Shown piece after piece: positions 3,070-64,000 of a stretch of 64,000 nt of DNA; the stretch's first letter is position 1; every line of letters starts with the position of its first letter. The notes under the pieces were generated by a model, which ran no database searches, was not told the DNA's origin, and worked only from the letters and a program-made list of their open reading frames with translations. The stretch is taken from NCBI RefSeq assembly GCF_026683955.1, contig NZ_CP113343.1, forward strand, positions 3,968,001-4,032,000, in the 5' to 3' direction. Made by a program: the position numbers and the translations under genes. The DNA is from Arthrobacter sp. MMS18-M83 (GTDB taxonomy: Bacteria > Actinomycetota > Actinomycetes > Actinomycetales > Micrococcaceae).

Positions 3070-4062
3070 ATGAGCGAGGATTCCTTGACAACACCGCAGC
3101 ATCCCATCGGATCGGGATTCGGCCACGGTTCCACGGCGTCGGACGTGCTCACCGGGGTGGACCTCCACGGTAAAACGGCCATTGTCACCGGGGGCTACTC
3201 CGGGCTCGGCCTGGAAACGGTACGGGCATTGTCCGCTGCCGGGGCGCGGGTCACGGTTCCAGCCAGGCGGCCCGAGCACGCGAAAGAAGTCCTCACCTCG
3301 GCCGGTCTGGGGCCGGAACAAGTGACCGTGGAGGCCCTGGATCTGGCCGACCAGGAGGGGGTGAAGGATTTCGCGGCACGCTTCCTGGAATCGAACCCAA
3401 CACTGGACATCCTGATCAACAACGCGGCCATCATGGCTAGCCCGGAGCAGCGCGTGGGTCCGGGTTGGGAATCCCAGTTCGCCACCAACCACCTGGGCCA
3501 CTTCACGCTTCTCAACACGTTGTGGCCCGCGTTGGCGGCTGCCGGCTCGGCCCGCGTCGTGTCCTTGTCCTCCACAGGACACAAACTCTCGCCGATCCGT
3601 TTCGAGGACATCAATTTCGAGACCGGCTACGACAAATGGAAGGCCTACGGCCAGGCAAAGACGGCCAATGCGCTGTTCGCCGTGGAACTGGACCGCCTGG
3701 GCCGGTCTTTCGGCGTGCGGGCCTTTGCGGTCCATCCCGGAGGCATCATGACCGAGTTGCAGCGCCACCTGCCACGGGAAGAAATGGTTGCCGCAGGGTG
3801 GATGGATGCCGAAGGCAACGTCAGGGAGGGTTTCAAGACTCCGGAGCAGGGAGCCGCCACGTCCACGTGGGCAGCCACGTCACCGGCCCTGGATGGCATG
3901 GGCGGGGTGTATTGCGAAGACTGCGACATCGCCAACCCCACGGACCCGGCCTCGCCGCTGGCTCGGTACCAGGGCGTCGACGCGCACGCCGTGGATCCTG
4001 AAGCGGCGCAACGGTTGTGGGCCGTCTCCGCGGAAATAACGGCCGTCAACGCGTTCGGGTAG
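3070..4062 (+). CDS. short-chain dehydrogenase/reductase
   Basis: A 330-residue SDR, of the longer WW-oxidoreductase/retinol-dehydrogenase-like kind. It shows the NAD(P) loop TGGYSGLG (about residues 41-48), NNAA (about 117-120), a catalytic Ser region VVSLSST and the catalytic Tyr-Lys in YGQAK. An N-terminal extension of ~30 residues precedes the Rossmann fold. It starts 33 bp after moeZ behind a GAAAGG ribosome site, so co-transcription is possible. Substrate unknown. Confidence 0.88.
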   Translation: MSEDSLTTPQHPIGSGFGHGSTASDVLTGVDLHGKTAIVTGGYSGLGLETVRALSAAGARVTVPARRPEHAKEVLTSAGLGPEQVTVEALDLADQEGVKDFAARFLESNPTLDILINNAAIMASPEQRVGPGWESQFATNHLGHFTLLNTLWPALAAAGSARVVSLSSTGHKLSPIRFEDINFETGYDKWKAYGQAKTANALFAVELDRLGRSFGVRAFAVHPGGIMTELQRHLPREEMVAAGWMDAEGNVREGFKTPEQGAATSTWAATSPALDGMGGVYCEDCDIANPTDPASPLARYQGVDAHAVDPEAAQRLWAVSAEITAVNAFG

Positions 4063-4120
4063 GACCCCGCGGTTCCCGAACCACCACAGCAAGGGACATG
4101 CTCATTCTTGGTCAATGCCG

Positions 4121-4145
4121 CTGGACATAACCCTGTTATGTCCAG
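4121..4145. terminator. hairpin between convergent SDR and hemA genes
   Basis: A perfect 11-bp inverted repeat, CTGGACATAAC / GTTATGTCCAG, with a 3-nt loop. It lies between two converging genes. There is no T-run, as is common for actinobacterial terminators; a bidirectional terminator is the simplest reading. Confidence 0.55.
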
Positions 4146-4224
4146 TCCTGGCGATCAGGGGAGCGCATGCTCTTGCGGCATGGGGCTTGCGAACCGCTTG
4201 GGGCGGGCGGCGTCGCGTGTGCGA

Positions 4225-5553
4225 CTATGCGCTTTCAGCCTGCTGAGGTGCCTGTTGGTGGTCCACAGGGCATTCAGTTGCCGGGGCAGCGGCAACAGGC
4301 TGTTCCACCTGGATTCCGTACAGGGCCTCGAGTGCGGCCACGTACTCGTCTTGCTGGCCGTTGGCGGCAAGCTCCCTCGCACGGACCGTGGGGATGTGGA
4401 GCAATTGCTTGACCATACGGCGGAGGGCGAACTCGACTTCTTCGGCTGCGGCGGTGCAGCCGTGGCGCGCCCGGACTTTCTCCATTTCGGCGTCGAGGAC
4501 GCTCATGGTGTGGCGGCGCAGCGCCACAATGGCCGAGTCAACAGAGCGGGCCTCCCGCTCCTGTTCGAAGGCTGCTGCTGCGCCGGACACAATAGCGCTC
4601 GCTTGTGCCAGCGACTCCGCCTGTTCCTGGGGCGCTGCCAAGCGGATGGATTCGAGCGTCAGGAGCTCGACGCCGTCGAGCTCGCCCACTGCAGGATCGA
4701 AATCGTGGGTGAGCGCGAGGTCGATCGCGATGAGCGTTTGAGGGGACAACGCGCGGACCTTGGCAAGTTCCGCGGCCTCCACGCGCGTGTCCGATCCGCT
4801 GCAGCCGATCATGACGTCCGCCGCGGCGACGGCGGCAGGAAGGGTTTCGGCGTCGAGCGCGGTTCCGCCGCGGGTCGCCACAAAAGCCTCGGCCCGGCCG
4901 GACGACGAATAGACCGACACATCGGTGCAGCCCCGCTCGCGAAGAAGTGACATGGTGGCTCCGGCGTAGGCGCCGGTTCCGAAGACGACGACCTTCTTGG
5001 TGCTCCAGTCGGCGTTCTCCGAGAGATCCGTGGCGAGGTCCAGGGCAACGGAAACGATCGACAGGCCACGCGAACCGAGGGCAGTCTGGGCCCCGACGTC
5101 CTTGGCGGTCTTGGAAGCGGCCTGGAATAGCCGGACAAGTCCTGAACTTGCGGTTCCTTCATGCTGGGCAGTGATGAGGGCGCGGCGCACCTGTCCAGCG
5201 ATTTCGCGTTCGCCCACGACGGCGGAGTCCAGTCCGGCGCTCACGGCAAAGAGGTGCCTGCTGACTTCCGGCCCGGTGCGGGTGCTGAAGGCGCGTGACA
5301 CGAGTTGCTCGTTGAGCCCGCTCAAGCCACTGATCTGAGTGACGAGCGCCGAGCGCGCGGCTTCGAGGTTCTCGACATGCGGCGTTTCGCCATAGATTTC
5401 GTAGCGATTGCAGGTGGCCAGGACCACGGCGCCGGAGACAAGTTGGGAGTCGGCCAAAGCGGACGAGGCAACCTCGGATGAACCGTTGCTCAACTGAGCG
5501 ACGGTTTCAAGGTCGATGTCGGCGTGTGTAGCCACCAATGAGAAAAGAACCAC
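4225..5553 (-). CDS. hemA: glutamyl-tRNA reductase
   Basis: HemA makes glutamate-1-semialdehyde from Glu-tRNA with NADPH, the first step of C5 heme synthesis. The 442-residue protein has the catalytic TCNR motif (Cys48 from this start), the [12 protein letters not shown] motif, and the NADPH loop [10 protein letters not shown]. The start chosen is a GTG at 5553 ([13 protein letters not shown]), which fits the family N terminus; an ATG at 5616 would add 21 atypical residues. Hydrophobic residues directly after the start are normal for GluTR. It is divergent from hemE and the other heme genes. Confidence 0.93.
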
Positions 5554-5562
5554 AGCAAAGCA

Positions 5563-5593
5563 ATCATAGCTTTTTCGGCGCCATGTAGAACAA
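5563..5593 (-). promoter_or_regulatory. candidate hemA promoter
   Basis: On the minus strand, TTGTTC (5593-5588), a 19-bp spacer and TATGAT (5568-5563) precede the GTG at 5553 by 9 nt. This would give a leaderless or nearly leaderless mRNA and supports the GTG start. Confidence 0.4.
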
Positions 5594-5701
5594 CGCACGG
5601 CAGTGGTTCTCCGCACTGCTTGGAGTGACGCCCGCCACGTCCCATGGTGTGGGACAGGCTGTCGTTATCTTTTGGGCCCGATCTTCGGCACAATCGAAGG
5701 C

Positions 5702-6844
5702 ATGACTTCCAGTTCTGCATTGCCTCACTCCGTGTCGGCCAACCCTGTGTCCGCCGCCGGCGCTTCCGGCATCGCCGCCTCAAGCCTTGACGCAAACCAC
5801 CCCCTCATGGATGGCCGCACCGCAGACTCGCCCCTGATCCAGGCCTACCGTGGCGGCAAGCCGTCCCGTCGTCCCGTGTGGTTCATGCGCCAGGCCGGCC
5901 GATCGTTGCCGGAATACCTCAAGGTCCGTGAAGGCGTTGCGATGCTGGACTCGTGCCTGCGTCCCGAGCTCGCCTCGGAGATCACGTTGCAGCCTGTCCG
6001 CCGCCACGACGTGGACGCAGCGATCTTCTTCTCCGACATCGTCATTCCCCTCAAGCTGGCGGGAGTTGGCGTCGACATCGTGCCCGGCGTCGGGCCCGTC
6101 CTGGACAAGCCCGTCCGCACCGCGGCCGACGTCGCCGCGCTGCCGCAGCTGACGTGGGAAGCCCTTGAACCGATCCGCGAGGCCGTGCGCCTGACCGTGG
6201 CGGAGCTTGGCGCCACCCCACTGATCGGCTTCGCAGGTGCGCCGTTCACTCTCGCTGCGTACATGGTGGAAGGCAAGCCGTCCCGGGACCACCTCGGTCC
6301 GCGCACCATGATGCACGCCGATCCGGAAACCTGGACCGCCCTGGCCAATTGGGCCGCGGATGCTTCCGGAATGTTCCTGCGCGCCCAACTGGAAGCCGGC
6401 GCGTCTGCCGGGCAGCTGTTCGACTCCTGGGCGGGCTCTCTTGGCCTGGCCGATTACACCAAGTACGTCGCTCCTGCCTCGACCCGTGCCCTTGACCACG
6501 TTCGCCACCTCGGCGCGCCGTTGGTCCACTTCGGCACGGGAACCTCCGAGTTGCTTGTCGCCATGCGGGCCGTCGGAGTGGACGTCGTGGGCGTGGACTA
6601 CCGGCTGCCGTTGGACGAAGCGAACCGACGACTGGGCGGCACCGTCCCTCTGCAGGGCAACATTGACCCGGCGCTCCTTTCCGCGCCGTGGGACGTCCTG
6701 GAAGCGCACGTCCGTGAGGTGATCGCCGCCGGCTCTACGGCCCCGGGCCACGTCCTTAACCTCGGACACGGCGTGCCCCCGGAGACAGACCCAGCAGTCC
6801 TGACCCGGGTAGTGGAACTCATCCACTCGATCCCGGCAGGGTAG
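5702..6844 (+). CDS. hemE: uroporphyrinogen decarboxylase
   Basis: HemE decarboxylates uroporphyrinogen III to coproporphyrinogen III. The 380-residue protein carries signature 1 (PVWFMRQAGRSLPEY) and signature 2 (GFAGAPFTLAAYMVEG), plus the C-terminal LNLGHGVPPETDP. The ATG at 5702 gives a ~35-residue Ala/Ser-rich leader before the conserved domain; an in-frame upstream start at 5603 adds unrelated residues. It is the first gene of the large heme operon, 5 bp ahead of hemY. Confidence 0.95.
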   Translation: MTSSSALPHSVSANPVSAAGASGIAASSLDANHPLMDGRTADSPLIQAYRGGKPSRRPVWFMRQAGRSLPEYLKVREGVAMLDSCLRPELASEITLQPVRRHDVDAAIFFSDIVIPLKLAGVGVDIVPGVGPVLDKPVRTAADVAALPQLTWEALEPIREAVRLTVAELGATPLIGFAGAPFTLAAYMVEGKPSRDHLGPRTMMHADPETWTALANWAADASGMFLRAQLEAGASAGQLFDSWAGSLGLADYTKYVAPASTRALDHVRHLGAPLVHFGTGTSELLVAMRAVGVDVVGVDYRLPLDEANRRLGGTVPLQGNIDPALLSAPWDVLEAHVREVIAAGSTAPGHVLNLGHGVPPETDPAVLTRVVELIHSIPAG

Positions 6845-55514: not shown

Positions 55515-56381
55515 TTACGTGAGAGGTGCTGCCGCAACGGTGGGGAGCGTCGGTTTCTTCGAGCCGCCCACGGGTTCCACGGTGATGCCGATGGCAGCAG
55601 CGCTGGAAATGCCCGCGACCACAGCCGGATGGCTCAGGGCTTCGGCGTCCATGAGTCCCTGGGATACGGGGTCGGAGCCGTCCTTGGGAATGAGCCACAT
55701 CTGATAGACCTTGCCGGCGGGGGGAGCAGGAACTCCGTTCATGCGGACCACCACAGCGTTCTTCGTGCTGGAAATGGACACGGTGGCAGTGCCGCCGCCG
55801 TTGACGTTGACGGTAGCTTGCCGGACATCGCCGGCCTGCAGGACCTGGTTCACGGGATCGTTCTGCCCGGCTACGTAGACACCCACGCCCACCCCGCCAA
55901 GCGCAATCACTGCAGCAGCCGCGGCGGCTGCCACCCAACCGCGGACGCCGCCGAAGCGTCGCCGATCCCGTCGGCCCCGGGCCGCCGCGAGGTCCACGAC
56001 GTCGGGAGAAACCTGCGTTGTGGGGCGAGCCGAGGCTTCGGCAGCCGGCGACGGTGCGGATGCGAGGCGTGGTTGTTGGGGGAGTTGCAGCAGAATGTCC
56101 TGCAACAGGCCGGGGCGGGGCTCGGCCTCGTCCGTGAAAGAGGTGGCGAGCGTTTCCCGCGTTTGCCTGACCCGGTCAAGGAATGCCGAGCGTTCGGGCG
56201 CAGTGGCAATGTAGTTGTCGATTTCCGTGCGCTCGGCATCGCTCAGCGCGTCAAGGGCATAGATCTCGGCGAGTTCCAAGGCCCGTCCCTTGGCAAGATC
56301 TGTGGCTATGTCGGTGGCGAACATCTTGCGAAGGTAACTGTCTTTCCCGAAGTTCTGATTGTTATCGTCGTGGTCGGTCAT
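55515..56381 (-). CDS. rskA: anti-sigma factor, RskA-like
   Basis: A 288-residue membrane-anchored anti-sigma factor. The N-terminal zinc-free anti-sigma domain (residues ~25-110: AEIYALDALSDAERTEIDNY), a membrane segment (WVAAAAAAAVIALGGVGVGV, about 150-170) and the extracytoplasmic RskA domain (VYQMWLIPKDGSDPVSQG, EPVGGSKKPTLP). It starts 1 bp after the sigma factor stop. It holds SigK inactive until proteolysis at the membrane. Confidence 0.93.
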   Translation of the reverse strand: MTDHDDNNQNFGKDSYLRKMFATDIATDLAKGRALELAEIYALDALSDAERTEIDNYIATAPERSAFLDRVRQTRETLATSFTDEAEPRPGLLQDILLQLPQQPRLASAPSPAAEASARPTTQVSPDVVDLAAARGRRDRRRFGGVRGWVAAAAAAAVIALGGVGVGVYVAGQNDPVNQVLQAGDVRQATVNVNGGGTATVSISSTKNAVVVRMNGVPAPPAGKVYQMWLIPKDGSDPVSQGLMDAEALSHPAVVAGISSAAAIGITVEPVGGSKKPTLPTVAAAPLT

Positions 56382-56382
56382 G

Positions 56383-56979
56383 TCAGCTCACCCCCAGGCA
56401 AGTCTTGAGTCGGAGAAGTCCATCGCGGATGCGGGACTTGATCGTAGGAATCGCGGCACCGAGTTGTTCCGCGACTTCCCGGTATGTGAGCCCGCCATAG
56501 TAAGCAAGCTTCACGGATTCCAATTGCGTTTCCGTAAGGGTGCCAAGGCAACGGGCGACAGCCTCGGCCTCGAGCCGGCTGCTGGCTTCCTCTTCCACGG
56601 AATCGTGGTCAAGGATTTGGCTCGCGGCACCATACTTCGCTTCGCGGTCCGTGGAGGACTGGGCCGAGCGGACGCGGTCGATCGCGCGCCGGTGGGTGAT
56701 GGTCATGAGCCATGCGAGGGGACTGCCCGCCTCGGGATTGAATTTGGCCGCGTTCTGCCAGACCTGAATGAAAACTTCCTGGGTGGTATCTTCGCTCAAG
56801 CCGGCATCCACCAAGACGCGCTTGGCCATGCCGAAGACCCGCCGCGCGGTGAGCCGGTAGAACTCGCTGAAGGCTGCCTGGTCGCCGTCGGCCATCAAAC
56901 CCAGCAATTCCGCAAGCTGCGCATTGGAGCCGGCTATCAGGCCGGGGGCCTCGGGGCCTCGCACATTCGGTGTATCCAT
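56383..56979 (-). CDS. sigK: ECF sigma factor SigK
   Basis: A 198-residue ECF sigma factor. Region 2 reads FSEFYRLTARRVFGMAKRVL, EDTTQEVFIQVWQNAAKFN and WLMTITHRRAIDRVRSAQ; region 4 reads LTETQLESVKLAYYGGLTYREVAEQLG as LESVKLAYYGGLTYREVA and PTIKSRIRDGLLRL. The start is ATG 56979 (MDTPNVRGPE), supported by a TATGCT -10 ending 8 nt upstream; an ATG at 57084 would add an Arg/Ala-rich leader. It is coupled to rskA. Confidence 0.93.
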   Translation of the reverse strand: MDTPNVRGPEAPGLIAGSNAQLAELLGLMADGDQAAFSEFYRLTARRVFGMAKRVLVDAGLSEDTTQEVFIQVWQNAAKFNPEAGSPLAWLMTITHRRAIDRVRSAQSSTDREAKYGAASQILDHDSVEEEASSRLEAEAVARCLGTLTETQLESVKLAYYGGLTYREVAEQLGAAIPTIKSRIRDGLLRLKTCLGVS

Positions 56980-56987
56980 CACCGTCC

Positions 56988-56993
56988 AGCATA
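56988..56993 (-). promoter_or_regulatory. candidate -10 box of sigK
   Basis: TATGCT on the minus strand ends 8 nt before the sigK ATG, suggesting a leaderless transcript. Confidence 0.35.
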
Positions 56994-57198
56994 GGTTGCC
57001 GGCGGCACGGGCAGCGCCAGGAGCAGTCCGAGTCCTGAGAGTAGTCACGTGCGCCCCTTCCATGGCCCGCCGTTTTCCCGGCACTTGGTGCCTCCGCAGG
57101 ATGTTTGTGCCTGCATAGGGTATTCGATGCCGTGGGAGCTTTGGATGGGTGATCCGCGTCGGTGCCCTTGCGGATATCCTGACGGCTAGGCCAGCCCG

Positions 57199-59788: not shown

Positions 59789-60208
59789 TCAGCGACGCGA
59801 GGCTACGGCCAGGCGGTTGAGCGCGAGTGCGGCCACCAGCAGCCCGAAGTCGCGGAGTGCGACGTCGAAGAAGTTTCCGAGCACCAGCAGGTTCACGATG
59901 ATTCCCAGAAGCCATACGGCTACCAGGAGCGAGCCAAAGCGCGGGCGGACCGCCACCGCAATACCGGCCACGATCTCTACGACGCCCACGATGTACATGA
60001 ACGTTTGGGCAGGGATCGGCACCACGGTGGTGGCCACTGGGGCCAGGTAGGTCGTCCAGTGGGTGAGCAGGTTGGTGAACTTGTCCAGGCCGAAAATGAT
60101 CGGCGCCACGGTGAACACGGTCCTAAGGAGCAGGAATGCCTGCCGCTGGGGATCCATGGACATGAGTGATCCGGTCTTCACTTGAGCCGAGGATGGTGCA
60201 GTTTTCAT
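59789..60208 (-). CDS. DoxX-like membrane protein
   Basis: A 139-residue protein with four membrane segments (LLLRTVFTVAPIIFGLDKF, FMYIVGVVEIVAGIAVAV, LLVAVWLLGIIVNLLVL, FGLLVAALALNRL), of the DoxX/DUF417-like kind. DoxX proteins can form membrane redox complexes with a superoxide dismutase and a sulfurtransferase in mycobacteria (family knowledge). It is divergent from the Cys-rich regulator. The ATG at 60208 follows AGAAAGAAGG. Its promoter is covered by the shared operator. Confidence 0.82.
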   Translation of the reverse strand: MKTAPSSAQVKTGSLMSMDPQRQAFLLLRTVFTVAPIIFGLDKFTNLLTHWTTYLAPVATTVVPIPAQTFMYIVGVVEIVAGIAVAVRPRFGSLLVAVWLLGIIVNLLVLGNFFDVALRDFGLLVAALALNRLAVASRR

Positions 60209-60219
60209 GATGCCTTCTT

Positions 60220-60266
60220 TCTAAAAGTGGATAGCTTGATTTTAGAAATTTAGAGGGATTAAGCAA
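60220..60266 (-). promoter_or_regulatory. doxX promoter overlapped by the TCTAAAA-N14-TTTAGAA operator
   Basis: On the minus strand, TTGCTT (60266-60261), 16 bp, TAAAAT (60244-60239). The inverted repeat TCTAAAA (60220-60226) / TTTAGAA (60241-60247) covers the -10 and the transcription start, as expected for a repressor. The same repeat lies at 63580. Confidence 0.7.
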
Positions 60267-60291
60267 TGAGTGTTGTTTTTAGAGTTAAGCT
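60249..60291 (+). promoter_or_regulatory. regulator promoter region with TTTAGAG half-sites
   Basis: TAAGCT (60286-60291) ends 6 nt before the regulator ATG at 60298 (leaderless). TTTAGAG occurs at 60249-60255 and 60278-60284, resembling one arm of the shared operator, and suggests autoregulation. Confidence 0.45.
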
Positions 60292-60297
60292 GGATCC

Positions 60298-60963
60298 ATG
60301 ACCGGACTTCCCTGGCTGCGTCGGCTCTCGGCTCTCGCATCGCTCGACGACGGCAACCGCCGCCGCTTGTTTGAACACGTCTGCGGTGCTACCCGCGCGG
60401 TGAGCCGCGACGACGCTGCGATGGCTCTCGGACTTCCCCGGAGCACCGCCTCCTTCCACCTGGACCGGCTGGTCCGGGACGGGCTCCTGAGCGTTGAATT
60501 CCGCAAACTGGGTGGCAAGGTTGGGCCTGGTTCCGGGCGCCCTGCGAAGCTCTACGCCCCGGTCATCGACGAGATCGGCGCCTCGGTTCCGGAGCGCCAC
60601 TATGACCTCGCCGGGGAAGTGATGGCCTCGGCCATCCAGGACCTGATGGCCGAGGGAGGGTCCCCCCGCGAAGTACTCCTCGAAACTGCTTATTCGCGGG
60701 GCCGCGAGGCAGGAAGCGCCGAGCCGCAATTCCTGGACGTTCTCATGAGCCACGGCTATCGCCCGGAAGCTGACGACGACGGCGGTTACTCCTTGGCCAA
60801 TTGCCCGTTCCATCGCCTGGCCCAAGGTCACACAAACGTCGTCTGTGCCATGAACGGCGCCTTCCTCACCGGGGCGGCCGCCGCCTGCGGAATCGCGGAA
60901 GACCGGATCGCCGAAGACAGCCGCGAAGGCCATTGCTGCGCCAGGATCCGCCCGGCGGTTTGA
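60298..60963 (+). CDS. SufR-like HTH regulator with C-terminal cysteine cluster
   Basis: A 221-residue regulator. The N-terminal winged helix (RRRLFEHVCGATRAVSRDDA, LGLPRSTASFHLDRLVRDGL) is ArsR/SufR-like. The C-terminal effector domain has cysteines spaced C-x13-C-x13-C-x15-CC (NCPFHRLA, VVCAMNG, AACGIAED, GHCCARI), similar to the Fe-S-binding arrangement of SufR. It probably senses an Fe-S cluster, NO or redox state. It is divergent from doxX; the next gene is a cysteine desulfurase. Confidence 0.85.
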   Translation: MTGLPWLRRLSALASLDDGNRRRLFEHVCGATRAVSRDDAAMALGLPRSTASFHLDRLVRDGLLSVEFRKLGGKVGPGSGRPAKLYAPVIDEIGASVPERHYDLAGEVMASAIQDLMAEGGSPREVLLETAYSRGREAGSAEPQFLDVLMSHGYRPEADDDGGYSLANCPFHRLAQGHTNVVCAMNGAFLTGAAAACGIAEDRIAEDSREGHCCARIRPAV

Positions 60964-61019
60964 GGGGGCATATTGAACAGCCGCCTTCCCGTGGCAAAGC
61001 CTGAATCCCGCTCCGTCGA

Positions 61020-61025
61020 TAGACT
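61020..61025 (+). promoter_or_regulatory. candidate -10 box of the cysteine desulfurase gene, leaderless
   Basis: TAGACT ends 6 nt before GTG 61032. It lies in the 68-bp gap after the regulator gene, so the desulfurase may have its own promoter. Confidence 0.4.
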
Positions 61026-61031
61026 TGGGTA

Positions 61032-62300
61032 GTGCCTGTTTATCTGGACCATGCCGCCACCACGCCCATCGCAGCCGTCGCCCTCAGTGCGATGACGCGC
61101 GAGCTAGCGCGGACTGGAAACCCCTCGTCGCTGCACTCTTCGGGGCGCCGTGCCCGGCGCGCGGTGGAAGAAGCGCGCGAGGCCATTGCCGCCGCTGCCG
61201 GGGCGCATCCTTCCGAACTCATCTTCACCTCCGGAGGCACCGAGGCCGACAACCTCGCAGTCAAGGGCCTGTACTGGGCCCGCCACGACGAAGACGGCCG
61301 CCGCAAGCGGATCCTTTGCTCCGCCGTCGAGCACCATGCCGTGCAGGACACCGTCGAGTGGCTTGAACGGCACGAAGGAGCCGAAGCAGTCTGGCTCCCT
61401 GTCGATTCCCAAGGCATGGTGCGGCTCGACGCCGTCCGGACAGAGATCGAACGCGATCCGGGATCGGTGGCCTTGGTAACCGTCATGTGGGCAAACAATG
61501 AGGTCGGGAGTATCCAGCCCGTCAAGGAGATCGTGGAACTCGCTGCAAGTCACAGCATTCCCGTGCACTCGGACGCGGTCCAGGCTTTCGGCTCGATTCC
61601 CCTTAATTTCCGCGAATCGGGGCTCGCCGCGATGTCGGTGTCAAGCCACAAAATCGGCGGCCCAGTGGGCGTGGGTGCCCTCTTCCTGGGGCGGTCCACC
61701 AAGGTCACGCCCGTCCAGCACGGGGGAGGGCAGGAACGTGACGTCCGCTCGGGAACACTGGATACGGCGTCGATCGCGGCGTTCGCGGCGGCGGCGGAGT
61801 CGGCTGCCCGGAACCTGCCTGCGGAGCGCGAGCGAATCAGTGCCTTGCGGGATCGGATCATTGGCGGAGTCCAGGCGGCCATTCCCGAGGCAGTGTTGCG
61901 CGGAGCGCCTGGAGACGCCCGGCTTCCGGGCAACGCGCACTTCACCTTCCCGGGCTGTGAGGGCGATTCCTTGCTGTTCCTGCTGGACCTCGCGGGTATT
62001 GAGTCATCCACGGGATCCGCCTGTACCGCAGGCGTCCCCAGGCCCTCGCACGTCTTGCTAGCCATGGGGCTGGATGAGGACACCGCGCGGGGCGCACAGC
62101 GATTCAGCCTAGGGCATTCCTCGAACGATGCCGACGTCGACTCGTTGCTCAACGCGCTGCCCGGCGCGTACGCCCGGGCGAAGCTCGCCGGAATGGCCGG
62201 ACATGAGTCCAGTATCCAGACCGCGGCGACGGTGGCCCGCAGCTACGGCGGCGACTCTGCCAGGCGCCCCGCAGGAGGTCAGGCCTCCGGCAACAACTGA
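61032..62300 (+). CDS. cysteine desulfurase (IscS/NifS family)
   Basis: A 422-residue PLP enzyme that supplies persulfide sulfur. It has YLDHAATTPIAAVALSAM, FTSGGTEADNLAVKGL, the PLP Lys in SVSSHKIGGPVGVGAL, and the catalytic Cys in SSTGSACTAGVPRPSHVL. The GTG at 61032 gives the normal family N terminus. It is followed across a convergent gene by mnmA, which uses its sulfur for tRNA 2-thiouridine; in mycobacteria the two are adjacent. Its 3' end overlaps the reductase gene by 22 bp tail-to-tail. Confidence 0.94.
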   Translation: MPVYLDHAATTPIAAVALSAMTRELARTGNPSSLHSSGRRARRAVEEAREAIAAAAGAHPSELIFTSGGTEADNLAVKGLYWARHDEDGRRKRILCSAVEHHAVQDTVEWLERHEGAEAVWLPVDSQGMVRLDAVRTEIERDPGSVALVTVMWANNEVGSIQPVKEIVELAASHSIPVHSDAVQAFGSIPLNFRESGLAAMSVSSHKIGGPVGVGALFLGRSTKVTPVQHGGGQERDVRSGTLDTASIAAFAAAAESAARNLPAERERISALRDRIIGGVQAAIPEAVLRGAPGDARLPGNAHFTFPGCEGDSLLFLLDLAGIESSTGSACTAGVPRPSHVLLAMGLDEDTARGAQRFSLGHSSNDADVDSLLNALPGAYARAKLAGMAGHESSIQTAATVARSYGGDSARRPAGGQASGNN

Positions 62301-63517
62301 TCCAACGGCACCGCAGGGTCAACCAGGCGATTCACGTCCACGCGGATCCGCCGGGTGATCAATGCCTTGATGGGCTTCTGAACCCGTTGCTGGTTGACGC
62401 TCATGCCTGCCACCACGGCACCGTCCCGCAGCCAGAAGGCAATGAAGCTGTTCTCCTCCAACGAGCCGCGGATAACGGGCGCCGAACCCGCCGCCACCGT
62501 TGAATATCCCCAGTACTCCATCGAGACGTCGAACTGGTCCGTGTAGAAATACGGGACGACGTCCAGCATCGCGTCCTGTCCCAGCATCGCTTTGGCCGCG
62601 ACCTTGCCGCCGTTGAGGGCGTTGGACCAGTGCTCGCTGCGGTGGTGCTCGCCCGTGAAGGGGTGGAGGGCGTTGGCAACATCTCCCGCCGCAAAGACAT
62701 CGGGACTGCTTGTCCGGAGCGAAGAATCGACCACGATTCCATTCCGAATTTCCAGTCCCATGGCTTCGGCCAGGGCGGTGTCCGGAACGACGCCGACGGC
62801 CACCACCACCAGCTCGGCAGGAAGGACCTCGCCGGAGTTGGTGACAACGGCCTGTGCCTTGCCGTCACGTCCCGTGATCTCCGCCGCGCTCGCGGGGAGC
62901 CGGAACTCCACGCCGTGCTTTTCGTGCAGGCTTCGGAAGAAGCCACCCAGCTCGGGTCCGATGGCCAGGCTCAGCGGCACGTCCTCCAGTCCCAGCAGGG
63001 TCACCGCGTTGCCGTAGCTGCTGGCGGCCGCGGCAAGCTCCATGCCGATCCAGCCGGAGCCGACCATCACCACGTTCCTTCCGCCGGCTGACAGCCCTTC
63101 CTTGAGTTTGCGTGAATCGTTGAAAGTCCGGAACGTCGTGACGCCGGCCAGTTCCGAACCGGGGAGGGGGATGTGCCGCGGTTGCGCTCCCGTGGCAATG
63201 AGGAGCCGGCTGAACTCGAGTTGCGTCCCTGAATCCAGCTGCACGGTGTGGGTGGCAGGATCGGCGGCAATGGCCTCCTCGCCGAGGAGGAGTTCGACGC
63301 CGTTCTCCTGGTACCAGCCGGCCGCCAGCACCGGGACGGCGTCCTCTTCTACCTTGCCCAAGAGAAACTCCTTGGAAAGCGGAGGACGCAGATAGGGCTG
63401 CTCATCCTCGGCGCAAACCACCGTGATCCTGCCTTGGAATCCTTCCGAGCGCAGGGTTTTGGCGGCGGTGGCTCCGGCCAGCCCGCCGCCGGCGATGACG
63501 ATGTGTTCAGTGTCCAT
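62279..63517 (-). CDS. FAD-dependent NAD(P)H oxidoreductase (ferredoxin/rubredoxin reductase-like)
   Basis: A 412-residue flavoprotein of the pyridine nucleotide-disulfide type without the redox CxxC. FAD loop IVIAGGGLAGATAAKTLR, YLRPPLSKEFLLG, ATGAQPRHIPLPG, NAD(P) loop VVMVGSGWIGMELAAAASSYG, and SPDVFAAGDVANALHP. It resembles reductases of ferredoxin-dependent oxygenase systems, but no ferredoxin gene is adjacent. The ATG at 63517 is chosen; upstream codons are atypical. Its promoter is under the operator shared with doxX. Confidence 0.9.
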   Translation of the reverse strand: MDTEHIVIAGGGLAGATAAKTLRSEGFQGRITVVCAEDEQPYLRPPLSKEFLLGKVEEDAVPVLAAGWYQENGVELLLGEEAIAADPATHTVQLDSGTQLEFSRLLIATGAQPRHIPLPGSELAGVTTFRTFNDSRKLKEGLSAGGRNVVMVGSGWIGMELAAAASSYGNAVTLLGLEDVPLSLAIGPELGGFFRSLHEKHGVEFRLPASAAEITGRDGKAQAVVTNSGEVLPAELVVVAVGVVPDTALAEAMGLEIRNGIVVDSSLRTSSPDVFAAGDVANALHPFTGEHHRSEHWSNALNGGKVAAKAMLGQDAMLDVVPYFYTDQFDVSMEYWGYSTVAAGSAPVIRGSLEENSFIAFWLRDGAVVAGMSVNQQRVQKPIKALITRRIRVDVNRLVDPAVPLDQLLPEA

Positions 63518-63579
63518 GGTGACTCGATTCGCGGGGGGGTGGAGGTTCGGTGGATGCGGACGGTCCACGCAGTCGAACA

Positions 63580-63627
63580 TCTAAAACTGATAGTTTTGAC
63601 TTTAGAAGTGTCCGTGATCGCGGTCAA
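63580..63627 (-). promoter_or_regulatory. reductase promoter overlapped by the TCTAAAA-N14-TTTAGAA operator
   Basis: On the minus strand TTGACC (63627-63622), 17 bp, TAAAGT (63604-63599), close to consensus. TCTAAAA (63580-63586) / TTTAGAA (63601-63607) covers the -10 with the same arm spacing (21 bp start to start) and the same placement as at doxX. Confidence 0.75.
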
Positions 63628-63633
63628 GGCATT

Positions 63634-63663
63634 TTGGGGGGCATTCCGGCGGGGCGCTAGAAT
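63634..63663 (+). promoter_or_regulatory. candidate mnmA promoter
   Basis: TTGGGG, 18 bp, TAGAAT, 62 bp upstream of the mnmA ATG. Confidence 0.45.
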
Positions 63664-63725
63664 AGTCGGGCGCGCTTACTCTTTTCAGCCGCAATTCTTC
63701 TCCCCAACACCAACAGAAAGCCAGC

Positions 63726-64000
63726 ATGCGAGTTCTTGCAGCCATGAGCGGCGGAGTCGACTCCGCCGTTGCCGCCGCCCGCGCCGTCGAGGCGGGGCAC
63801 GACGTCGTCGGCGTCCACTTGGCGCTGTCACGCATGCCCGGAACGCTGCGTACCGGCAGCCGCGGCTGCTGCACGATCGAAGACTCCCGTGACGCTTGGC
63901 GCGCTTGCGATGTGCTGGGGATCCCTTATTACGTTTGGGACTTCTCGGAGCGCTTCAAGGAAGACGTCGTTCAGGACTTCATCGACGAATATGCCGCGGG
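63726..64000 (+). CDS. mnmA: tRNA-specific 2-thiouridylase, 5' part only
   Basis: The frame runs off the right edge, so only the first ~91 residues are seen. It begins [20 protein letters not shown] with the PP-loop SGGVDS that binds ATP, then GVHLALSR and [16 protein letters not shown], typical of actinobacterial MnmA. MnmA adds the 2-thio group to U34 of tRNA-Lys/Glu/Gln, with sulfur from a cysteine desulfurase such as the one at 61032. An intergenic leader of ~60 nt precedes it. Confidence 0.93.

Follow-up and report, generated by a model that had tools for sequence, protein, structure and literature searches.

SufR repressors, which have been described for Synechocystis, Mycobacterium tuberculosis (Rv1460), Streptomyces avermitilis and Corynebacterium glutamicum, combine an ArsR-type winged helix with a C-terminal cysteine domain. 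According to excerpts of PMC6034842, the cysteines of Rv1460 are spaced C-X12-C-X27-C, with C203, C216 and C244 being required for function, and SufR of Synechocystis is autoregulated, repressing its target and its own gene from one site each. The SufR operator of S. avermitilis, CAAC-N6-GTTG, overlaps the -10 box (PMC11995493, in excerpt). Here, we analyse a stretch of 64,000 nucleotides (nt) from Arthrobacter sp. MMS18-M83 (contig NZ_CP113343.1, positions 3,968,001 to 4,032,000; “the window”), in which a shared operator connects a SufR-like regulator gene, a gene for a DoxX-type small membrane protein (doxX) and a flavoprotein reductase gene. A sequence-only reading of this DNA had proposed one regulator and one operator governing a small regulon that joins DoxX and the reductase; this is now supported by the co-occurrence of site, genes and regulator, and by unlinked copies of the site.

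The inverted repeat TCTAAAA-N14-TTTAGAA, which that reading had placed with identical spacing before doxX and before the reductase gene, is exact in the window at both positions, 60220-60247 and 63580-63607. Its symmetric core, TCTAAA-N15-TTTAGA, spans 27 base pairs (bp), with half-site centres 21 bp apart, and is likewise exact in both copies. The first of these (operator O1, 60220..60246) is located between doxX on the minus strand and the divergent regulator gene on the plus strand and covers the -10 box of doxX, the second (63580..63606) covers that of the reductase gene, and the overlap of the TTTAGAA arm with the -10 boxes TAAAAT (doxX) and TAAAGT (reductase) is as had been described. 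Shuffles of the window gave a mean of 0.02 matches to TCTAAAA-N14-TTTAGAA at up to two mismatches. In the genome of 5,112,324 bases, the core is found at up to one mismatch in two places only, before doxX and before the reductase gene, and exact TCTAAA/TTTAGA pairs with a gap of 13-18 are confined to the same two places; the reversed pattern, serving as a control, was met once in each scan. The motif is, thus, not common at random genome positions. A chance origin of the sites was rejected on the basis of the shuffles, the genome scan, the co-occurrence within genus and family and the intergenic gaps outside the genus (see below); the observation of a shared operator is correct and lies far above chance.

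The doxX gene (59789..60208, minus strand) encodes 139 amino acids and is preceded by a good ribosome-binding site, AAGAAGG, just past the operator. Its product shows weak similarity only to the Pfam family DoxX (PF07681; 20.5 bits, below the cut-off of 23.6) and no match among the NCBIfam models. The regulator gene (60298..60963, plus strand), the mRNA of which is probably nearly leaderless, encodes a winged-helix protein of 221 amino acids (Pfam HTH_20, 31.2 bits) containing Cys169, Cys183, Cys213 and Cys214. The third gene (62279..63580, minus strand; true start likely at 63517) encodes a ferredoxin-reductase-like flavin adenine dinucleotide (FAD)/NAD(P)H reductase, with both Pyr_redox_2 (225.1 bits) and Reductase_C (61.8 bits) above their cut-offs. 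The best 25 of its 69 NCBIfam matches all remain below their respective cut-offs.

To follow the operator among relatives, the best 80 of 456 regulator relatives in the genome contigs collection were used, deriving from Arthrobacter, Pseudarthrobacter and Paenarthrobacter and from one metagenome-assembled genome named only Micrococcaceae; the presence of doxX and reductase genes as well as the site counts were recounted by tblastn. The site precedes doxX in all 69 loci which contain this gene (exact in 67, one mismatch in two), and among the 61 loci with the reductase gene it is exact in 45, with one, two and three mismatches in six, nine and one locus, respectively; conservation before orthologues is, thus, evident for both targets. 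No exact site is present at this place in the 11 loci without doxX; nine of these show only a site that matches the regulator's position and has one or two mismatches, and two show no site. In the 19 loci without the reductase gene, the stretch downstream of the regulator contains no site even when two mismatches are allowed. In two loci (L089 and L117), doxX is apparently decaying—fragments or parts were matched and no open reading frame (ORF) passed the search—and the operator is kept, with one mismatch in L089 and exact in L117. In ten further loci (L102, L106, L107, L110, L111, L118, L120, L133, L150 and L160), the reductase operator has accumulated two or three mismatches, all of them confined to the arm that overlaps the -10 box (TCTATYGTCAGG-like on the strand of the gene), and the doxX site stays exact.

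The position of the sites relative to the promoters is best compatible with repression. The probable doxX promoter (60239..60266, minus strand) is composed of the -35 box TTGCTT (60266-60261), 16 nt and the -10 box TAAAAT (60244-60239). The reductase promoter, TTGACC-17-TAAAGT (63599..63627, minus strand), is the sole promoter-like match in 60150-63750, where shuffles yield a mean of 0.4, and all 51 related reductase promoters that have a site with at most one mismatch show a -35 box with 5/6 letters at a spacing of 16-18 (shuffles, 1.5%). A degenerate third copy, O2 (GATTAA-N15-TTTAGA, three mismatches; 60257..60283), lies over the probable -10 box of the regulator gene, TAGAGT (60280-60285). 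The right arm of O2 is the TTTAGAG half-site at 60278-60284, so that the extra half-sites which the sequence-only reading had listed beside this -10 box do exist, and O2 explains at least part of them. O2-like copies with up to three mismatches occur in 47 of the 80 related loci (shuffles, 4%) and the arm TTTAGA in 75 of them (shuffles, 10%), counted only within the 58 nt before the regulator, since a longer scan sometimes picked up O1. These promoters also bear on the idea that the regulator activates, or both activates and represses according to the state of a cluster. The doxX -35 box is weak throughout the genus (2/6 letters in two, 3/6 in 39 and 4/6 in 28 of 69 related promoters), as in some activated promoters; however, the sites cover the -10 box and start region instead of lying upstream of the -35 box, the third copy covers the regulator's own -10 box, and the -35 box of the reductase promoter is good, which makes activation improbable.

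Beyond the individual loci, the site follows the regulator. The exact site is present in 86 of 101 genomes of the genus, the reversed pattern in none, and among the 61 genomes that were also searched for the regulator, 51 have both, none has the regulator only, one has the site only (a genome that is 68% complete) and nine have neither (Fisher p=5.8e-10). The corresponding numbers for 245 genomes of the family are 64, 24, four and 153 (p=1.5e-33); the reversed pattern occurs in 19 of these, so that a few stray sites are to be expected. In this scoring, genomes with weak matches (G128, G165, G223, G309 and, with E 5.8e-4, G022) were treated as being without the regulator, and genomes with only a ~42% identical paralogue (e.g., G048) as having it. 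If another transcription factor were to bind the site and the SufR-like gene were linked by position alone, genomes with a site and no regulator should not surprise, and four of the 157 family genomes scored as lacking the regulator are of this kind. Yet these four exceptions are near the background of the reversed pattern, and the co-occurrence across 245 genomes, the copy at the regulator's own promoter and the unlinked targets that retain the site in regulator-holding genomes leave this explanation with very little probability.

Such unlinked targets are found in several genera. In genus g24, the regulator adjoins folE-reductase-folP-RibD with an exact site (L210-L212), and a distant doxX carries an exact site of its own (L259-L261; L210 and L259 are from one genome); the unlinked doxX of L264 does so as well. 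In genus g8, the regulator-doxX pair (L202, L203; N16 site) is apart from a reductase-folP-RibD operon (L262, L268; exact N15 site); these four loci come from four different genomes, and two genomes, G161 and G184, hold the pair together with a distant copy of the exact site sequence seen before operons of the L262/L268 type. In nine loci (L063, L064, L066-L070, L077 and L269), the site precedes a third type of target, in which the gene for a DUF6789/DUF1440-like membrane protein is followed by that for a GH15 enzyme; in L077, folE comes first. A search of the window genome, made without a positive control, did not find the DUF6789/DUF1440-like protein, and its absence fits the two sites of this genome. 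A second regulator clade, ~42% identical, is present in some Arthrobacter-group genomes (L074-L077, L064), where its neighbours are folE, reductase, folP, RibD_C or DUF6789-GH15.

Among the listed matches, 11 loci of the genus with a site away from the regulator were examined (L063-L073), eight being next to genes of the module delineated below and three (L065, L072, L073) not. Of 14 further such loci examined from family and genus (L259-L272), seven adjoin module genes, three adjoin other possible targets (L263, L265, L267) and four adjoin none (L266, L270, L271, L272), with L270, L271 and L272 belonging to genomes scored as without the regulator. In L265 (2458-2523) and L267 (2538-2620), both from genus g7, the exact site precedes a small gene, apparently shared by both, that contains CPQW, resembles thioredoxin by eye and has no Pfam match; it is a possible further target. 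In L263 (2106-2535), the exact site lies ~90 bp before a DUF3040 gene, and its sequence is present again, identical or nearly so, in four genomes of genus g8.

Judged by sequence, the regulator is a distant homologue of SufR and not SufR in the strict sense. An hhalign comparison of the regulator profile with the genome's own SufR gave a probability of 97.2% (E 3.2e-11, 198 columns). With a spacing of C-X13-C-X29-C, Cys169, Cys183 and Cys213 are present in all 145 distinct aligned regulators and Cys214 in 142 of them, Cys197 not being conserved; the SufR-like C-terminal cysteine pattern that had been read from the window sequence is, thus, borne out. None of 14 regulator members matched TIGR02702 at E<=0.01; the genome's own SufR, with 77.6 bits, is also below the cut-off of this model (178.8), which is accordingly strict. 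The ArsR/SmtB model NF033788 weakly matched all 14 members (best E 1.8e-07), with 22.1 bits for the window regulator (cut-off, 55), and a sequence search of the PDB returned three matches (5duk, 6j0e, 6j05), all limited to the helix-turn-helix part. The genome's own SufR, identified from TIGR02702 (below cut-off) and the downstream genes, is encoded elsewhere (L169, C1:4562500-4570000, from 1464 onward) and is followed by genes read by eye as sufB, sufD and sufC. Upstream of this sufR, neither the window operator nor a relaxed CAAC-N6-GTTG-like site was found; conversely, CAAC-N6-GTTG does not occur between regulator and doxX or upstream of the reductase gene, and the window regulator has as its neighbours doxX, a csd-like gene, the reductase gene and an mnmA-like gene, with no suf genes beside it. 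That the window regulator is the SufR of the suf operon was, therefore, rejected.

The cysteines also provide the ground for the main rival explanation, in which operator and regulon are the same, and the regulator is a thiol-based quinone or electrophile sensor without a cluster, being released by alkylation or disulfide formation in the manner of MhqR, YodB and QsrR. Several conserved cysteines, the pairing of DoxX with a flavin reductase and the presence, in L236, of a LigB-type dioxygenase close to a homologue of the regulator are in line with such a sensor. We regard it as unlikely, albeit the strongest competitor, given that the cysteine spacing and the full-length homology favour SufR and that folE and folP are far commoner neighbours than the LigB dioxygenase, which was seen in one locus outside the genus and for which no systematic count was made.

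The pterin genes emerge when the neighbourhood of the regulator is followed across Actinomycetota. Profile searches matched 42 of 347 genomes of the order (E<=1e-15) and 48 of 396 genomes of the phylum (E<=1e-25), the window's genus being included in both. For the analysis of gene content, 55 loci outside the genus (20 from the family, 15 from the order and 20 from beyond) were picked by regulator similarity, neither by their neighbours nor randomly; in unannotated loci, genes were identified from the similarity of ORFs to a small set of query proteins, and genes of other kinds were therefore missed. Within 6 kb of the regulator, doxX is present in 31 loci, folE in 17, the reductase gene in 16, RibD_C in eight and folP in seven, and at least one of doxX, folE, reductase and folP is found in 44 of the 55 loci (family 20/20, order 11/15, beyond 13/20), often with the regulator being divergent to these genes or to the RibD-like gene. 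An estimate, not a matched control, based on the two folE copies of the window genome puts the share of random genes with folE nearby at well under 1%. Outside the genus, 31 gaps separate doxX from a divergent regulator gene; TCTAAA-N13-17-TTTAGA is exact in 13 of them and has at most one mismatch in 20, compared with none and 0.23%, respectively, in 3,100 shuffles of those gaps. The csd and mnmA genes, the proximity of which had been taken as a functional clue, are kept in only seven and six of the 55 loci, respectively, and no operator site precedes csd in the window; as functional partners of the regulator, both were rejected in favour of the recurrent folE, folP and RibD-like genes.

Of four plasmids examined among 18 matched plasmid records, two show the same gene order. 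On pNOCA01 of Nocardioides sp. JS614, the regulator is followed by a “hypothetical protein” (DoxX, 64% identical), folE and an FAD-dependent oxidoreductase. On pRop44186_a of Rhodococcus opacus, it is accompanied by DoxX (59%) and by folE, and the gene for an FAD-dependent oxidoreductase is found at a distance of 3 kb. Both plasmids have an N16 site with one mismatch. A Streptomyces plasmid carries a regulator-doxX pair with a best site of three mismatches, and a Kitasatospora plasmid a regulator with none of the partner genes. Regarding the identity of the pterin enzymes, FolE of L210 scores above the NCBIfam cut-offs of GTP cyclohydrolase I subfamily models, missing the equivalog TIGR00063 by 12 bits, and FolP of L210 scores above that for dihydropteroate synthase. 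In a second folE/folP locus of the window genome (L257, C1:398500-408500, 3756-6687), folE and folP are separated by a weakly LigB-like gene, and the gene for a DoxX protein (72 bits) is oriented divergently to folE.

Taken together, we consider it probable that the window encodes an autoregulated SufR-like repressor that acts on -10 boxes, senses redox changes or nitric oxide (NO) via an iron-sulfur (Fe-S) cluster and governs a pterin-linked response. The product of the gene at 60298 would bind TCTAAA-N15-TTTAGA as a dimer or a pair of dimers, the two operator arms being predicted to face the same side of the double helix at a distance of two turns. Positioned over the -10 boxes of doxX, the reductase gene and, via the weaker site, its own promoter, it would exclude RNA polymerase. 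The conserved cysteines most likely ligate a cluster sensitive to oxidants or NO, and loss or oxidation of this cluster would release the repressor and, thereby, switch on DoxX, reductase and regulator together. In relatives, the circuit would also control folE, folP and the RibD-like reductase, so that the response would probably provide or restore reduced pterins during redox stress. Since the doxX and reductase orthologues travel with folE, folP and the RibD-like gene, the output would probably serve reduced pterins or folates; the RibD-like protein may replace dihydrofolate reductase (DHFR), by analogy with Rv2671. The window targets, thus, look like part of a pterin module. More tentatively, with a likelihood that we place somewhat short of even, this could be a phylum-wide circuit, in which a SufR-type Fe-S repressor, via an operator composed of two TCTAAA half-sites set far apart, governs an accessory module for reduced pterins that consists of DoxX, GTP cyclohydrolase I, flavoprotein reductase, dihydropteroate synthase and a RibD/DHFR-like reductase, to which some species add the DUF6789-like membrane protein and the GH15 enzyme. 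If so, Fe-S damage would be coupled directly to pterin/folate supply, and DoxX and reductase of the window would represent the part of the module that this genome has kept under the operator.

Several points weigh against this model. The 80 related loci are closely related, and their counts are not independent events; 80 of the 145 aligned regulators were obtained in a scan with NCPF-containing peptide patterns, by which Cys169 is partly conserved by construction; and the third cysteine of SufR aligns with Cys214 (absent in 3/145), the invariant one being Cys213. The regulator cysteines could act as plain thiols or metal ligands, and the weakness of the doxX promoter makes repression, as against activation, less certain. 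Furthermore, the exact N15 site is missing in 24 of the 88 family genomes that hold the regulator (loci examined from part of this group carry a site with N16 or with mismatches), some sites adjoin no recognised target, and in 11 of the 55 outside loci, doxX, folE, reductase and folP are all missing from the vicinity of the regulator. Finally, the operator is absent from L257, the second folE/folP locus (nothing below three mismatches was found there); hence, the pterin link is not direct in the window genome and rests there on analogy.

SufR-like repressors as such are already known; the operator, the regulon and the pterin link were not found described. No paper on the circuit, and none combining “DoxX” and “GTP cyclohydrolase”, was found in the open-licence literature, most subscription papers being outside this search, so that absence is not proven. 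The model offers a testable function for an unnamed SufR-like family found across Actinomycetota, for a DoxX-type protein labelled hypothetical in named plasmid records, and for a ferredoxin-reductase-like enzyme without a known partner, and it ties redox or Fe-S sensing to pterin synthesis. The partners folE, folP and RibD-like are invisible from one window alone, and a simple operator scan allows the regulon to be predicted genome by genome.

The remaining genes in the vicinity comprise the cysteine desulfurase-like csd (61032..62300, plus strand; Aminotran_5, NifS model 392.7 bits, below the cut-off of 530.75), which is probably outside the regulon, and the start of an open frame truncated by the window end (63726..64000, plus strand), which is putatively mnmA-like; both neighbours are present as the sequence-only reading had described them. 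At 55515-57084 on the minus strand, two adjoining genes resemble, by eye, those for an anti-sigma factor and an extracytoplasmic function sigma factor.

Among the known systems, the quinone-responsive repressors MhqR, YodB and QsrR of Firmicutes control, among others, genes for flavin reductases, DoxX-type proteins and ring-cleaving dioxygenases. They belong to other regulator families than the window regulator and are not known to have pterin genes among their targets. In the reactive-chlorine system RclABC of Escherichia coli, a redox-sensitive regulator, in this case an AraC-family activator, governs a flavin disulfide reductase together with a small protein of the inner membrane; the window reductase matches the RclA model weakly (59.6 bits versus a cut-off of 740). 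The window regulator differs from SufR in the absence of adjacent suf genes, in its operator (TCTAAA-N15-TTTAGA in place of CAAC-N6-GTTG) and in the lack of a match to TIGR02702, and the half-sites of this operator type, 21 or 22 bp apart (N15 or N16), are spaced more widely than those of S. avermitilis SufR. Both share, besides the domain architecture, the C-X12/13-C-X27/29-C spacing and homology over most of their length; with S. avermitilis SufR, the window operators have the overlap with the -10 box in common, and the layout of Synechocystis SufR resembles that of the window, where each target has a well-matching site and the regulator's own promoter a degenerate one.

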